Origin: Planctomycetota bacterium
Lineage (GTDB): Bacteria; Planctomycetota; Phycisphaerae; FEN-1346
Reading direction: 5' to 3'
Assembly: GCA_026386995.1 (NCBI GenBank)
Contig: JAPLMO010000258.1
Span: forward strand, 1-6,743
Length of the DNA stretch: 6,743 bases
Part shown: positions 563 through 5,438 of the stretch, one piece after another
How the letters are laid out: every line of letters begins with the position of its first letter
How positions within the stretch are numbered: the stretch's first letter is position 1
Position numbers and translations under genes: made by a program
The notes under the pieces: generated by a model
What the model was told of the DNA's origin: nothing
The model's input: only the letters and a program-made list of their open reading frames with translations
The model's database searches: none

Positions 563-2044
563 ATGGCCGAACTTTCAGTCATCGGGCTGAACCACCACAC
601 CGCACCGGTCGAGGTGCGCGAACGCCTCGCCTTGCCGGGCGACCTGGTGGTCAGGCTGCTGCACACCATACACGCCGAGCCCGCCATGGAAGAAGCGATG
701 GTCCTGGCCACCTGCAACCGCACGGAGTTGTACGGCATCGCGCGCGACGGCCACGACCCGCTGGCCTGCTTCCTGGACGTTGTCGGGCGCGTCAAGGGCG
801 CCCCCGTTGCGGCCGACCCGGCGGTCTTCTACCGGCACGAGGGCCTGGCAGCCGCGCGGCACATCTTCCGCGTTGCCGCGTCGCTCGACTCGCAGATCGT
901 CGGCGAGCACCAGATTTTGGGGCAGGTCAAGGACGCCTACCACCTGTCGTGCGAGGCCCGGACGGCCGGGTTCTTCCTGCACAAGCTGTTGCACTGGGCG
1001 TTTCGCGTGGGTAAGCGTGTGCAGATGGAGACCGACCTGGGCCGCGGCTCGGCCGGCATCGCCCCGGCGGCCGTCGAGCTGGCCCAGCAGATCTTTTCGA
1101 GCCTCTCGGGCAAGGCGGTCCTGCTCGTGGGCGCCGGCCAGACGGCCGAGGCCGCCGCGCGGGCACTTCTGCAACGCGGCGCCGCGCGGCTGGTTGTCGC
1201 CAACCGCACACTCGCCCGCGCACAGCAACTCGCGTACGACCTGGTGCACACGCAGGCCGGGACGAGCGAGGAAGAAGGCTGCCCCGACGAAATGGCCCCC
1301 TCCGGCACGGTTGTCTGCCCGGCCCTGATGGCGCTGGAGGTGCTTGAGGCGGAGGAAGCCAAAGAAGGGGTCAGGAGCCTTGACGGCGTAGGGCTCCAGA
1401 CCCCTTCTTTGGCCCAGACCCCTTCTACGTCTTTGCCTTCCGCGGCGGCCACCGAGGCGATCTCCCTGGAAGACATCCCCAAGGCGCTGCCGGGCGTCGA
1501 CCTGGTCATCTCTTCGACCGGCTCGCCCGAGTTGGTTCTGACGTACGACGCACTGGCCGACGGGCTGCGCCGCCGCCGGTCGCCCCTGTTTATCGTCGAC
1601 ATCGACGTGCCGCGCGACGTCGATGAGCGACTGGGCGACCTCGACAACGTGTTCCTCTACAATATAGACGACCTGGACCACCTTGTGGCCCGGAACGTCG
1701 ACCGCCGCCGCCATGAGATTCCGCGGGCCGAGGCGATCGTCGAAGACGAACTCTGCGAGTTCAGCCGATGGCTGGCGTCGCTCCAGGTCACCCCGATGAT
1801 CCGCCTCCTGAGGGAGCAACTCGATGCCCTCCAGCAGGCCCACATCGACCGCTACGGCAAACAGTTCAGCGACGCCGACCGCGAGCGGCTTAAGGCATTT
1901 ACTCAGACGCTCTGCAACCAGATACTTCATAAGCCGACGACGTTCCTGAAGGAACTGTCGAAGGAGGGTTCGACCAGCGAGAGCCTTCAGATGGCGGATA
2001 TCATCCGCCGCCTGTTCGGCCTTGACTCAAACAATGACGGGTAA
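563..2044 (+). CDS. hemA: Glutamyl-tRNA reductase (HemA)
   Basis: HemA reduces glutamyl-tRNA(Glu) with NADPH to glutamate-1-semialdehyde, the first committed step of C5-route tetrapyrrole synthesis, in the cytoplasm. The start at 563 gives the family's usual opening, MAELSVIGLNHHTAPVEVRE. An in-frame ATG at 533 would add ten residues overlapping the end of repeat A and is less likely. Neither start has a strong ribosome binding site. The catalytic Cys is C51 in TCNRTELY; SLDSQIVGEHQILGQVK follows near residue 115; the NADPH-binding loop GAGQTAEAAA starts at G190; VVANRT is at 211-216 and VISSTG at 315-320. The C-terminal dimerisation helices run from about 385 to the end. The length of 493 is about 70 more than usual because of an extra segment, roughly residues 228-296, inside the NADPH domain; it contains a palindromic repeat (1358-1426). 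The frame is kept, so the gene is probably active. ahbC follows after 27 bp. Confidence 0.96.
   Translation: MAELSVIGLNHHTAPVEVRERLALPGDLVVRLLHTIHAEPAMEEAMVLATCNRTELYGIARDGHDPLACFLDVVGRVKGAPVAADPAVFYRHEGLAAARHIFRVAASLDSQIVGEHQILGQVKDAYHLSCEARTAGFFLHKLLHWAFRVGKRVQMETDLGRGSAGIAPAAVELAQQIFSSLSGKAVLLVGAGQTAEAAARALLQRGAARLVVANRTLARAQQLAYDLVHTQAGTSEEEGCPDEMAPSGTVVCPALMALEVLEAEEAKEGVRSLDGVGLQTPSLAQTPSTSLPSAAATEAISLEDIPKALPGVDLVISSTGSPELVLTYDALADGLRRRRSPLFIVDIDVPRDVDERLGDLDNVFLYNIDDLDHLVARNVDRRRHEIPRAEAIVEDELCEFSRWLASLQVTPMIRLLREQLDALQQAHIDRYGKQFSDADRERLKAFTQTLCNQILHKPTTFLKELSKEGSTSESLQMADIIRRLFGLDSNNDG
1358..1426. repeat. GGGGTC/GACCCC inverted repeat inside hemA
   Basis: A 22-nt arm (1358-1379, core AAAGAAGGGGTCAGGAGCC) is the reverse complement of 1392-1413 (core GGCTCCAGACCCCTTCTTT) with one mismatch, around a 12-nt loop. 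The word CCAGACCCCTTCT recurs directly at 1396-1408 and 1414-1426. The element is in frame and encodes residues 266-288 of HemA, within a segment most HemA proteins lack. A 14-nt word, AAGAAGGGGTCTGG, is shared exactly between the complement of 1396-1409 and 4032-4045 in ahbD, which links it to the repeat there. Confidence 0.85.
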
Positions 2045-2055
2045 CCAGCGAGCAC

Positions 2056-2061
2056 GAGAGG
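2056..2061 (+). promoter_or_regulatory. Probable ribosome binding site of ahbC
   Basis: GAGAGG lies 10 nt before the ATG at 2072, in the 27-bp gap after hemA. The spacing is on the long side. A closer ATG at 2064 opens only three codons before a TGA that overlaps the real start (ATGA at 2072-2075 context), so it is not the gene start. Confidence 0.5.
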
Positions 2062-2071
2062 CAATGTACCG

Positions 2072-3286
2072 ATGATCGGAATCTCAAAACTATATTGCGG
2101 CACGGTCGAACCGAGCGACGTCCTGCGCTACGGCGGCGACAGCAAACGCCTGCCCAGCCACCTCCTCCAGTTCTCGACCGACAAGAAGCCCGTCGTCGTC
2201 TGGAACTGCACGCGCCGCTGCAACTTAAAGTGCGTCCACTGCTACAGCCAGTCCGAGAACAAGGCGTACGAGGGCGAGTTGACGACCGGCGAGGGCCTCG
2301 CCATGCTCGAGGACCTCGCGCAGTTCGGCGTCCCCGTCACCCTCTTTTCCGGCGGCGAGCCGCTCGTACGGCAGGACCTCTTCACCCTTATCGAGCGCAC
2401 CGTAAGGCTCGGTATGCGGGCGGTCATCTCCACCAACGGCACGCTGATTACCGAGGAGAAGGCCGAGCGCCTGAAGGCCTTCAACCTCAGTTACGTTGGC
2501 GTCTCGCTCGACGGCCTCAAGGACGTGAACGACCGTTTCCGCGGCGTCTCCGGGGCGTTCGAGAAGGCCCTCGCCGGCATCCGCAACTGCCAGAAGACGG
2601 GCATCAAGGTGGGCCTGCGCTTTACGATCACCAATCGCAACGCCTCCGAAGTGGACGGCATCTTCGACCTTATCCGCCAGGAGAACATCCCGCGCGTCTG
2701 CTTCTACCACCTCGTCTACGCGGGCCGCGGCAGCAAACTGATGAGCGAAGACCTCGACCACGAGGCCACACGCCGCGTCGTCGACCGCATCATCGACCGC
2801 ACCGCCGAACTCCACCGCGAGGGACGCAAGGTCGAAGTCCTCACGGTCGACAACCACGCCGACGGGCCGTACCTGTACCAGCGGATGCTCCGCGAGAAAG
2901 ACCCGCGCGCGGCTGACGTGCTCGCGCTTCTCCAGATGAACCGCGGCAACTCCTCGGGCGCAGGCATCGGCTGCGTCAGTTGGGACGGTGCGGTCCACGC
3001 CGACCAGTTCTGGCACCACGTGACGTTCGGCAACGTCCGCGAGCGGTCGTTCTCCGCAATCTGGACGGACCTCACGAACCCGCTCATGGCGAAACTCAAG
3101 GACAAGCGGCCCCACGTCAAGGGGCGCTGCGCCACGTGCCGGTTCCTGGACATCTGCGGCGGCAACTTCCGCGTCCGCGCCGAGGCCGCCACCGGCGACC
3201 TTTGGCAGCCCGACCCGGCCTGTTACCTGACGGACGAGGAGATTGCCGTCGCCGCCGACAAGCCCGACACCATCTGCCGCGAGTGA
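2072..3286 (+). CDS. ahbC: 12,18-didecarboxysiroheme deacetylase (AhbC), radical SAM
   Basis: AhbC removes the acetate side chains at C2 and C7 of 12,18-didecarboxysiroheme, giving Fe-coproporphyrin III in the siroheme-dependent heme pathway. The N-terminus MIGISKLYCGTVEPSDVLRY and the stretch PVVVWNCTRRCNLKCVHCY are what I recognise as AhbC; the related heme d1 protein NirJ shares the second stretch. The radical-SAM 4Fe-4S cysteines are C50, C54 and C57 (CxxxCxxC), and the SAM-contact motif is SGGEPL near residue 93. The C-terminal region carries a SPASM-like set of cysteines for an auxiliary cluster: C301, then C353-x2-C356-x5-C362-x21-C384. The length of 404 residues is normal for the family and I see no break or insertion. 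It lies 27 bp after hemA and 4 bp before the ahbD start, so the three genes are almost certainly one transcript. NirJ is the main alternative, but ahbD next to it and no other nir genes favour AhbC. Confidence 0.9.
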   Translation: MIGISKLYCGTVEPSDVLRYGGDSKRLPSHLLQFSTDKKPVVVWNCTRRCNLKCVHCYSQSENKAYEGELTTGEGLAMLEDLAQFGVPVTLFSGGEPLVRQDLFTLIERTVRLGMRAVISTNGTLITEEKAERLKAFNLSYVGVSLDGLKDVNDRFRGVSGAFEKALAGIRNCQKTGIKVGLRFTITNRNASEVDGIFDLIRQENIPRVCFYHLVYAGRGSKLMSEDLDHEATRRVVDRIIDRTAELHREGRKVEVLTVDNHADGPYLYQRMLREKDPRAADVLALLQMNRGNSSGAGIGCVSWDGAVHADQFWHHVTFGNVRERSFSAIWTDLTNPLMAKLKDKRPHVKGRCATCRFLDICGGNFRVRAEAATGDLWQPDPACYLTDEEIAVAADKPDTICRE

Positions 3287-3290
3287 GACC

Positions 3291-4400
3291 GTGACCGAAA
3301 CGACAAAACATCCCGCCCCCCAGCCCTACCTGCCGCGCCTCATCGCCTGGGAGGTCACCCGCTCCTGCCCACTGGCGTGCAAGCACTGCCGCGCCGCCGC
3401 ACGCCTTGAGCCTTACCCCGGCGAACTTTCTACCGACCAGTGCCTGCGGGTCCTCTATAACATCGCCTCCTTCGCCAAGCCCACGATGATCCTCACGGGC
3501 GGCGAGCCGATGCTCCGCACCGACATCTACGATATCGCCGCGCACGCCCGCCGCCTGGGCCTGCCCGTGGTCATGGCGCCGTGCGGCAAGTTCGTCGATG
3601 ACGAGGCGGTCGCGCGGATGAAGAAGGCCGGCATCCACTGCATCTCGATCTCGATCGACGGGGCAACCGCCGCCTCGCACGACGCCTTCCGCGGCATCAA
3701 GGGGGCGTTCGATTTCGCCATCCGCGCAAGCGAGGCGGCCAAGCGCGGCGGCCTCGACTTCCAGATCAACACCACCATCACCCAGCACAACCTGGCGGAA
3801 CTGCCCGCCATCCTGGACCTCGCCGTCCGACTCGGGGCGACCGTCTTTAACCCGTTCCTCCTGGTGCCCACGGGGCGCGGCAAGGAACTGGCCGGCCAGG
3901 AAATATCGCCCGAGGACTACGAGCGGACGCTTCACTGGCTCGCCGGACAGGAAAGCCGCACCGACATCCGCATGCGCGTCACCTGCGCCCCGCACTACAC
4001 CCGCGTTATACACCAGCGCCACTTGCTTGCCAAGAAGGGGTCTGGCGAAAAGGGGTCTGACCCCCTATCCGTTCAGGGGTCTGACCCCTTTTCGCCCCCG
4101 CGCGGCAAAGGGTGCCTGGGCGGCAAGGCCTTCGCGTTCATCTCGCACGTCGGCAAGGTCCAGATCTGCGGATTCCTGGAGACCGAGTGCGGCGATCTGA
4201 AGAAGGAAAACTTCGACTTCCGCAAAATATGGGAGACCTCATCGGTCTTTCTGGCCATGCGCGACGTCGACCGCTACCACGGCAAGTGCGGCCGGTGCGA
4301 GTACCGCCGCATCTGCGGCGGCTGCCGCGCCCGAGCCTTCGCCATGACCGACGACTACCTGGCCGAAGAGCCCTTCTGCATCTACCAGCCGCTTCGCTAA
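3291..4400 (+). CDS. ahbD: Heme b synthase (AhbD), radical SAM Fe-coproporphyrin III decarboxylase
   Basis: AhbD oxidatively decarboxylates the two propionates of Fe-coproporphyrin III at C3 and C8 to vinyl groups, the last step to heme b. I chose the GTG at 3291, four bases after the ahbC stop, with GAGTGAG just upstream; it gives 369 residues. An ATG at 3243 would overlap ahbC by 44 bp and add a Pro/Ser-rich tail foreign to the family. The text PYLPRLIAWEVTRSCPLACKHC is typical AhbD, with cluster cysteines C26, C30 and C33. LTGGEPML, MAPCGK and SISIDGATAASHDAFRG follow. Auxiliary-cluster cysteines are C275, C293, C300, C333-x2-C336-x5-C342-x2-C345 and C363. Residues 248-269 (KKGSGEKGSDPLSVQGSDPF...) are encoded by a palindromic repeat in the variable linker between TCAPHY and KGCLGG. 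The frame is intact. The last 54 bp of coding are nearly duplicated at 5242-5295. Confidence 0.92.
   Translation: MTETTKHPAPQPYLPRLIAWEVTRSCPLACKHCRAAARLEPYPGELSTDQCLRVLYNIASFAKPTMILTGGEPMLRTDIYDIAAHARRLGLPVVMAPCGKFVDDEAVARMKKAGIHCISISIDGATAASHDAFRGIKGAFDFAIRASEAAKRGGLDFQINTTITQHNLAELPAILDLAVRLGATVFNPFLLVPTGRGKELAGQEISPEDYERTLHWLAGQESRTDIRMRVTCAPHYTRVIHQRHLLAKKGSGEKGSDPLSVQGSDPFSPPRGKGCLGGKAFAFISHVGKVQICGFLETECGDLKKENFDFRKIWETSSVFLAMRDVDRYHGKCGRCEYRRICGGCRARAFAMTDDYLAEEPFCIYQPLR
4032..4096. repeat. GGGGTC/GACCCC inverted repeat inside ahbD
   Basis: The arms 4044-4064 and 4076-4096 (21 nt each, outer part GGCGAAAAGGGG, inner part GGGGTCTGACCCC) are inverted copies with a single central mismatch, around the 11-nt loop CTATCCGTTCA. 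Each arm is itself a near-palindrome, GGGGTC-T-GACCCC. A partial extra copy, AAGAAGGGGTCTGG, lies at 4032-4045. The element stays in frame, encoding Ser/Gly/Pro-rich residues 248-269 of AhbD. It resembles the small REP-like palindromes that some genomes carry in many copies; which transposase family moves it cannot be told from here. Confidence 0.88.
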
Positions 4401-4524: not shown

Positions 4525-4543
4525 CCCTCCGGGCGTTCTTGCG

Positions 4544-4572
4544 TGGACAGGTCCTCTGAATTCTGTTATGCT
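4544..4572 (+). promoter_or_regulatory. Sigma-70-like promoter of the lipoprotein gene
   Basis: TGGACA (4544-4549, one base off TTGACA) is followed after exactly 17 bp by TATGCT (4567-4572, four of six to TATAAT), with a TG at 4564-4565 making an extended -10 (TGTTATGCT). Transcription would begin near 4579 and leave a leader of about 20 nt before the ATG at 4600. The lipoprotein gene would therefore be transcribed on its own, separately from the heme operon. Confidence 0.6.
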
Positions 4573-4599
4573 CAGCCACGTCAAATGATGGGTGAACCT

Positions 4600-5250
4600 A
4601 TGAGAATCGCGACCCTCGCCTTGCTCGTTCTTCTGCCGCTCTGCCTGGCCTCGTGCGGCCCGGCGCAGATGCCGCAGACGCTCCCCGCCGCTGACGCGAA
4701 GGCGCAGGCGCAGTCGGCGGAGATGCCGCAGACGTTCCTCGCCACCGACTCGAAGGCGTGGACGCAGTGGCTCGACAGCAAGACCGACCACGGCAGTTTC
4801 TCCCGCTTCGAGGTCCGTGATATCCTGAAGTTCCTCGCCGGCCCCGCCGACCTCGCCATCGAGGAGTCGCCCGCTCTCGACCGGGAGGTCCAGCACATCG
4901 ACCTTGCGGCACTTTCTGTGCGGCAGGCCCTCTGGAAGGTCTCCAGCGAGTACGGCGTCAAGATCGCCTGGGCCGTGACGCACGAGCCGCGCACGTTCAT
5001 GGACGCCCTTGAGACCGAGTCTCGCCGCGATGGGCCTGGCGGCGTCACGACACTCACCGAAGTCATGCAGGGCGACCCCGAGGAGTACCGGAGGCTGAAG
5101 GCCGAAAAGAAGATTTACCGCGAAGAGGTCCAGGGCGATACGCTCTACTACGCTGTCGAGAACGTCCTTTGCCTGCCGTTCGCCAACGGCGCATCGGCCA
5201 TGGTCACGATGGTCGAGCGGTACAAGACCCCCGCGCCGAAGTCGCCATGA
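4600..5250 (+). CDS. Predicted lipoprotein with possible STN/secretin-N-like domain
   Basis: I do not recognise this as a named family. The start at 4600, with GGTGA four bases before it, gives a textbook lipoprotein signal: MR, a hydrophobic stretch (residues 3-16), then the lipobox LASC with C19 as the lipidated residue. In-frame ATGs at 4585 and 4588 would add only four or five residues. The mature protein should be anchored to a membrane on the periplasmic side. Residues 24-56 hold an 18-residue tandem duplication (MPQTLPAADAKA / MPQTFLATDSKA) acting as a linker. Residues 67-126 alternate strand and helix, with DLAIEESPALDREVQHIDL then SVRQALWKVSSEYGVKI. This recalls STN/secretin N0 domains, where a short domain binds a partner protein, but the likeness is by eye only. 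The rest (EVMQGDPEEYRRLKAEKK, then AMVTMVERYK) is unassigned. The TGA stop overlaps the ATG of the copied ahbD tail (ATGA, 5247-5250). No link to heme synthesis is evident. Confidence 0.75.
   Translation: MRIATLALLVLLPLCLASCGPAQMPQTLPAADAKAQAQSAEMPQTFLATDSKAWTQWLDSKTDHGSFSRFEVRDILKFLAGPADLAIEESPALDREVQHIDLAALSVRQALWKVSSEYGVKIAWAVTHEPRTFMDALETESRRDGPGGVTTLTEVMQGDPEEYRRLKAEKKIYREEVQGDTLYYAVENVLCLPFANGASAMVTMVERYKTPAPKSP
4669..4767 (+). repeat. 54-bp tandem duplication within the lipoprotein gene
   Basis: Units begin at 4669 and 4723, each with ATGCCGCAGACG. Over the first 15 codons, 37 of 45 bases agree; beyond that the units diverge. At the protein level MPQTLPAADAKAQAQ aligns with MPQTFLATDSKAWTQ. 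The duplication lies just after the lipobox, in the linker between membrane anchor and folded domain, where length changes are tolerated. Confidence 0.75.
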
Positions 5251-5300
5251 CCGACGATTACCTGGCCGAAGAGCCCTTCTGTATCTACCAGCCGCGATAG
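5242..5300 (+). pseudogene. Duplicated 3' end of ahbD (54-bp copy)
   Basis: Positions 5242-5295 match 4339-4392 of ahbD at 52 of 54 bases, a constant offset of 903 bp. In the ahbD phase this copy reads MTDDYLAEEPFCIYQPR followed by TAG at 5298-5300. The two differences (GAC to GAT at 5258, TGC to TGT at 5282) both fall at third codon positions and change no residue. The copied ATG overlaps the lipoprotein stop as ATGA, so ribosomes might re-initiate and make a 17-residue peptide, though that is unlikely to matter. It is best read as the displaced or leftover tail of an ahbD copy. The upstream sequence in the same phase is not AhbD-like. Confidence 0.88.
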
Positions 5301-5404: not shown

Positions 5405-5438
5405 TTGGCGCGGCGGGTACGGAGACCCGCCGCACGAA
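5405..5438. repeat. Dispersed palindromic repeat, copy B
   Basis: This matches the copy upstream of hemA (499-532) at 31 of 34 positions. The arms are 5408-5418 and 5425-5435, with one unpaired position (C5409 opposite A5434), around a six-base loop ACGGAG. It ends where the reading frame of the broken response regulator on the - strand loses meaning, so it may mark the point where that gene was cut. Confidence 0.8.

Follow-up and report, generated by a model that had tools for sequence, protein, structure and literature searches.

How did the same kind of palindromic repeat come to lie in frame in two genes of one pathway? The question is raised by a stretch of 6,743 nucleotides (nt) from an uncultured Planctomycetota bacterium (contig JAPLMO010000258.1; the whole stretch is called the window here), in which hemA, for glutamyl-tRNA reductase, and ahbD, for heme b synthase, each carry a hairpin with arms of 21-22 base pairs (bp) built on GGGGTC(A/T)G, plus a partial extra copy. 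In our judgement, both hairpins are probably non-autonomous repeats with GGGGTCAG arms, similar to repetitive extragenic palindromic (REP) elements and associated elsewhere with Y1/HUH (IS200-like) transposases, which were inserted in linkers that tolerate them. This answer is drawn from the anatomy of the hairpins, the intact reading frame, the variable linkers, the like elements found elsewhere and beside transposases, and a different REPIN (REP doublet forming a hairpin) in the same linker of a related genome; that an element is present, that the frame is kept and that the linkers are tolerant are well supported.

The hemA hairpin (1358..1413, not assigned to a strand; type AAGGGGTCAGGAGCC...GGCTCCAGACCCCTT) has 22-nt arms at 1358-1379 and 1392-1413, which match at 95% around a 12-nt loop, and encodes AKEGVRSLDGVGLQTPSL; the partial arm copy next to it (1414..1426) reads AGAAGGGGTCTGG on the minus strand. 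The ahbD hairpin (4044..4096, likewise without a strand) consists of two GGGGTCTGACCCC palindromes 11 nt apart, with 21-nt arms at 4044-4064 and 4076-4096 (95%, 11-nt loop), and encodes GEKGSDPLSVQGSDPFS; its partial copy, AAGAAGGGGTCTGG, lies at 4032..4045 on the plus strand. These are the only two inverted repeats in the window with arms of at least 18 nt (loops of 3-15 nt, at most one mismatch), and the longest arm in 40 dinucleotide shuffles of the window was 14 nt. RNA folding of the hemA and ahbD stretches gave z values of -6.55 and -6.46, which none of 200 shuffles equalled, and all seven occurrences of AAGGGGTCTG in the window (up to one mismatch) fall inside the two hairpin stretches, compared with 0.33 on average and 3 at most in shuffles. 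The long inverted repeats with loops of 11-12 nt and the partial copy beside each, which an earlier note on this DNA had described, were thus borne out. The 14-nt word AAGAAGGGGTCTGG that the note regarded as shared is indeed common to both genes, but the copies lie on opposite strands (4032-4045 on the plus strand in ahbD; as the complement at 1396-1409 in hemA), and the proposal that the two insertions are separate is supported by the different hairpin types.

Both genes match their own families and read through the hairpin stretches in frame. The hemA gene (563..2044, plus strand; TIGR01035, E 1.4e-113, with GlutR_N, Shikimate_DH and GlutR_dimer domains) is open from 533, with the MAELSVIG start at 563, and ahbD (3291..4400, plus strand; TIGR04545, E 6.9e-135) begins with GTG at 3291, its TIGR04545 score of 449.8 bits, for the open reading frame (ORF) read from 3243, being below the cut-off of 500. 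From the coordinates, the element encodes residues about 266-288 of HemA, most likely in a loop of the NADP domain, and about 247-268 of AhbD, between the radical-SAM domain and the C-terminal cysteine cluster. In the HemA structure 1gpj, no more than a couple of residues stand opposite residues 238-307 of the window HemA. In the AlphaFold models, the pLDDT (predicted local distance difference test) score is below 50 at residues 233-252 and 268-292 of HemA and 257-273 of AhbD, and because most of both inserts is thus predicted to be disordered, their cost to the protein may be small, and measurable. The idea that the element itself had been selected for open frames was rejected, since only 3 of 6 frames are free of stops in hemA 1358-1426 and 3 of 6 in ahbD 4032-4096.

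The sites are also those where family members vary in length, as previously suggested. Among 32 HemA relatives that were aligned, of 120 listed (the fragments P0048 and P0051, with 80 and 85% identity and QTP words, were left out), the linker length varies. A GV(R/K/S)..L...L(Q/R)TPS-like peptide is clear in 6 of the 9 nearest relatives (77-93% identity), partial in P0008 and reduced to a QTPS remnant in P0009; there is none in P0002, and none was seen in P0010-P0032 of this alignment. Because the nearest relatives keep the peptide whole, in part, as a remnant or not at all, the hemA element looks older and appears to be decaying.

The AhbD linker is more diverse in content. We parsed 44 of 120 listed relatives, leaving P0121, the window's own AhbD, out of the counts; with the window included, the stretch between TCAPHY and CLGG spans 13-86 residues in 45 proteins, and by its peptide it is of the GGGGTC type in 10 of the 45, of a CAATCCG type in 3 and of neither in 32. 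The element peptide follows the stretch GDAAAVVPPHAHPG in P0130 and precedes a like stretch in P0122, P0124, P0126, P0131 and P0136, and this difference in position would require at least two insertion points, or a move. By protein identity only, the window organism was placed near three genomes, G001, G012 and G038 (AhbC 79% identical to locus L001 of G001, AhbD 75% to G012, HemA 67% to G038). In G038, the AhbD linker contains an exact GTGGCACGGCCGGCTTGTCCGGCC (L099:2255-2278), adjoined by an inverted, imperfect second arm. In G052, this sequence forms the arm of a 76-bp REPIN, and with two mismatches it matches 257 times in G038, 226 times in G052 and 48 times in G045, compared with 0 to 4 times in the other five of the eight genomes of the order of G012 and 0 in the control. 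The G038 linker is thus a case at the DNA level of a high-copy REPIN that differs from the GGGGTC hairpins. For the GC-rich G052, 40 REPIN loci were considered, long open frames being too common there for the genic share to be judged; three of five scanned ORFs had Pfam domains (L263, L255 and L246), each starting about 40 or more residues past the repeat. The third type would correspond to arrays of a CAATCCG/CAATTCG heptamer, one reading of which is QSAIRNPQFAI, the peptide of P0125 and P0135; GCAATCCGCAATTCGCAAT occurs in 5 of the 8 genomes, with 70, 47, 25, 11 and 8 matches (at most one mismatch, overlaps counted; control 0). A further repeat guessed behind the peptide KTRDSHLF (CGGGACAGYCACCTTTTT) occurred in 0 of the 8 genomes and was dropped. 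We give roughly even chances to the proposal that in this planctomycete group the AhbD linker is a repeatedly used genic landing site, entered in frame by three or more unrelated families (the GGGGTC hairpins, at two positions; the GTGG-footed REPIN, at the DNA level in G038; and CAATCCG arrays, as suggested by peptide), and that the linker content turns over faster than the enzyme, such that mobile repeats would be a principal origin of the sequence in this part of a core heme enzyme.

Like palindromes occur in other Planctomycetota genomes. We found the palindrome in 14 of 392 genomes, with a single match for the reversed control; those of the 14 with one match may be chance. The 1.8-Mb genome G448 has it at 60 places, and the 31 distinct places looked at there have arms of 8 to 24 nt and form a few sub-families. 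A 19-genome set was mostly picked for carrying the palindrome, and its 9 of 19 is therefore no rate. In the eight genomes of the order of G012, the exact hemA-type arm has 4 occurrences at 3 places, and high copy was not seen there; with one mismatch there are 12 versus 6 in the control, only double, so the four exact matches alone were used. G001 has two exact AAGGGGTCAGGAGCC arms, and G038 has a full AAGGGGTCAGGAGCC-N8-GGCTCCTGACCCCTT-like hairpin, close in type to the hemA copy. The latter sits early in an open frame of 545 amino acids (aa) and is probably outside the gene, just upstream of it, because a stretch resembling a signal peptide starts at an in-frame ATG 55 bp further on, ahead of the Pfam domains.

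Within the loci read, 25 of 71 distinct palindromes lie in an ORF of at least 150 aa; ten such ORFs were scanned, five had Pfam domains, and two were used. In L111 (G496), two in-frame palindromes lie in the FAD-binding domain of a 4-hydroxybenzoyl-CoA-reductase-like flavoprotein, and its best relative in the PDB, 1rm6_B, has gaps of 11 and 2 residues at them, in an alignment that has other, unrelated gaps as well. In L186 (G448; ORF 316-2523), an in-frame palindrome lies between glycosyltransferase domains of families GT2 and GT4, the joining of which is perhaps a gene fusion made by the repeat. Several other candidates were set aside: the KKGSDPF stretch in the methylase part of CobA-HemD in L095 (G247) is length-neutral versus 10 other loci; L108 (YaaA) and L110 (MqnA-like) have no clear extra residues by eye relative to their families and are doubtful; and a hemA-type hairpin in one viral contig, L210, sits early in a short ORF of unsure start and was not used as evidence of a genic insert.

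The repeats also flank transposase genes. Matches to PF01797 (Y1_Tnp) are present in 16 of 17 genomes, including all eight of the order of G012, and 23 Y1 loci were read, in five of which the motif filter found no Y1 ORF. In L211 (G448), two copies of one 43-bp palindrome, at 715-757 and 1817-1859, accompany a Y1 ORF at 737-1774, the first overlapping the ORF end and the second 42 bp beyond the opposite end. In L212 (G628), palindromes lie on either side of the Y1 ORF and one arm is within it, in frame; L214 (G496) likewise has repeats on both sides, together with an in-frame hairpin within the ORF; and in L226 and L227 (G463), GGGGTCAGGTCTC repeats flank the Y1 ORF on both sides. Y1_Tnp was confirmed for L211, L212, L214 and L227, and the Y1 ORFs of the GGGGTC-flanked loci read Y[IV]xxNP. 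In G448, two of three Y1 matches are bracketed by palindromes within 1.5 kb, an outcome of none of 20,000 simulations, for a distance that was chosen after seeing the data. As side observations, the palindrome at L211:715-757 overlaps the transposase ORF at its 3' end and supplies the codons for the final residues, and the in-frame repeats inside the Y1 ORFs at L212:1191 and L214:1102 are of the kind that flanks those ORFs. Taken together, these palindromes and Y1 flanks in other Planctomycetota genomes support the earlier view that the element is REP-like and of a transposase-associated kind.

REP elements are generally regarded as extragenic. Exceptions are described in two reports, one noting ORFs that contain REPs, in particular those of O. 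terrae and R. conorii, with flexible linkers or loops suggested as neutral sites (PMC3733652), and the other noting in-frame REPs inside tnpA-REP (PMC6006769). The window elements resemble the REPs and REPINs of RAYTs (REP-associated tyrosine transposases; TnpA-REP) in being short hairpins, single or as an inverted pair, of a class that in other genomes is dispersed and associated with Y1 transposases and has reported genic cases (PMC3733652, PMC6006769), but a GTAG/GTGG foot is not directly beside either hairpin in the window sequence. They are also like the terminal inverted repeats of TIRYTs (terminal inverted repeat-associated tyrosine transposases) and TIRtrons, which carry a GGGGWSAS motif (PMC3733652): GGGGTCAG fits this motif and is present at 1367 (plus strand) and in the ahbD arms (minus strand), and elsewhere repeats of this sort come in pairs and lie on the flanks of Y1 transposases. 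By contrast, the window copies are inside hemA and ahbD, and no transposase gene is present within the window. The comparison with the palindromic elements of Rickettsia holds as an analogy, since those too are in-frame palindromes inside unrelated proteins (PMC3733652), here HemA and AhbD, but not as membership, because Rickettsia elements are described there as CGTC-tagged and no CGTC tag is at either window hairpin. The Class 3 TnpA-Y1 of Planctomycetes share the phylum and have repeats without GT[AG]G, but they are described as having a CnGA foot and a Y----Q motif (PMC6006769), versus Y[IV]xxNP in the GGGGTC-flanked transposases. Comparison with Rfam at gathering scores gave no match.

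Genic REP-like elements are thus already known, and the new point is the repeatedly used AhbD linker. In the portions of the literature covered by our search, no report was found of this element class in heme genes or of several families in one linker; 'hemA' does not occur in the main text of PMC3733652, the target-ORF list of which is in an additional file and may hold hemA or ahbD. What stands out here is a transposase-associated hairpin class in two core heme genes, with one linker apparently filled by different repeat families among close relatives. If true, this would provide a natural series for asking at what rate such elements enter genes, how the survivors are filtered, and whether mobile DNA contributes to the growth of protein linkers in bacteria.

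Most likely, we infer, a Y1 transposase copied the hairpins in trans; they would have landed in flexible linkers, namely the NADP-domain loop of HemA and the stretch between the radical-SAM domain and the cysteine cluster of AhbD, and would owe their retention solely to the survival of frame and fold; on this view the insertion was tolerated and is not an adaptation of the element to coding sequence. The transposition event, an enzyme acting in trans in this lineage and neutrality are presumed in this scheme. The phylogeny of AhbD bears on it and on one of its alternatives. On a 26-row tree from which the linker was left out, the GGGGTC state requires 6 changes, of which 3 or more are forced by well-supported branches (as low in 40 of 500 shuffles). 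When the 17 nearest rows are taken, linker types are not clustered on the tree of the N-part (7 changes against 6.5 on average in shuffles, all 200 of 200 of which were as low) and only a little on that of the C-part (6 changes, as low in 85 of 200), so that among these rows it does not appear to follow the AhbD tree. Such scatter could also be given by homologous recombination between populations, swapping linker alleles in place of repeated insertion, and the highly conserved flanks on both sides of the linker would favour it; nevertheless, swapping leaves unexplained the origin of the repeats, the two positions (P0130 versus the others) and the unrelated REPIN in G038, and we regard it as unlikely.

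Hairpins that were originally REP-like might instead now serve in mRNA or DNA, for example by slowing ribosomes at a domain boundary or as a processing site. Their strong folds (z about -6.5 for both), their location in low-confidence stretches between folded parts, and the identity of the AhbD element peptide in 7 of 10 carriers, where the rest of the linker hardly aligns, would fit such a role; yet carriers and non-carriers are mixed among close relatives (P0129, P0132 and P0137 are without the element), and the mean identity of the peptide, 0.91, is hardly above the 0.89 of the enzyme, which leaves this a slim prospect. Least of all do we expect that no mobile element was involved and that the arms are products of drift within a low-complexity linker or of a local duplication: partial copies do adjoin both hairpins, and the HemA linkers of more distant relatives are also Ala/Glu-rich and variable, but the same arms occur in two genes and in other genomes beside transposases, and shuffled arms reach 14 nt at most, making this highly improbable.

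Several observations weigh against insertion of a Y1-mobilized repeat as the explanation. High copy and Y1 flanks were seen in other Planctomycetota genomes only, none from the window's species. Y1 ORFs with GGGGTCAG flanks were seen in G448, G628, G496 and G463, but in the order of G012, 0 of 12 Y1 loci had such flanks (for 4 of these loci, no Y1 ORF passed the motif filter); outside those 12, L137 (G022) has GGGGTCAGGCCCC at 2305, about 0.5 kb from a Y1 match. Exact AAGGGGTCWGACCCC occurs in 0 of the 8 genomes of that order, to which near relatives belong, and the ahbD element core (as 30-mers) in no viral contig. L143, the second bracketed Y1 gene of G448, is bounded directly by different repeats of about 100 bp, and the GGGGTC palindromes, at distances of 1.0 and 1.5 kb, therefore need not belong to it; the third Y1 gene (L225) carries GGGGACAG repeats. 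The excess in G628 is weak, with a listed palindrome no more than 1.5 kb away for only 3 of 24 Y1 matches (expected 0.5, P 0.015). Some genic copies in other genomes are doubtful, and the AhbD and HemA carriers were compared at the protein level only. Comparison with relatives, which the earlier note had recommended for locating the insertion point, confirmed that both sites are length-variable but gave no clean empty site in HemA, since relatives without the peptide also differ around it. On the 26-row tree, the linker types cluster somewhat (8 changes against 10.8 on average in shuffles, 9 of 200 of which were as low), because the distant rows are all without elements.

Besides hemA and ahbD, the window contains a ccsB-like fragment, ahbC, an ORF without a family match and a response regulator/histidine kinase. 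The ahbC gene (2072..3286, plus strand; TIGR04546, E 5.2e-210), between hemA and ahbD, showed no element, and the window word scan found no AAGGGGTCTG-like word within it (up to one mismatch). The final codons of ahbD (4339-4392) are duplicated at 5242-5295 (54 nt, 96%), where the following ORF (4543-5250) ends, which would fit either an insertion of that ORF or a copying of the ahbD end; this small ORF also has two tandem 54-nt copies at 4661-4768, 83% alike. Finally, a 34-nt hairpin, GCGCGGCGGGTNCGGAGACCCGCCGCGC, lies just upstream of hemA at 499-532 and again downstream at 5405-5438; it is perhaps another REP-like family, and its core is also found at L241:492-515, in the hemA locus of G045, the sole one among 285 loci.

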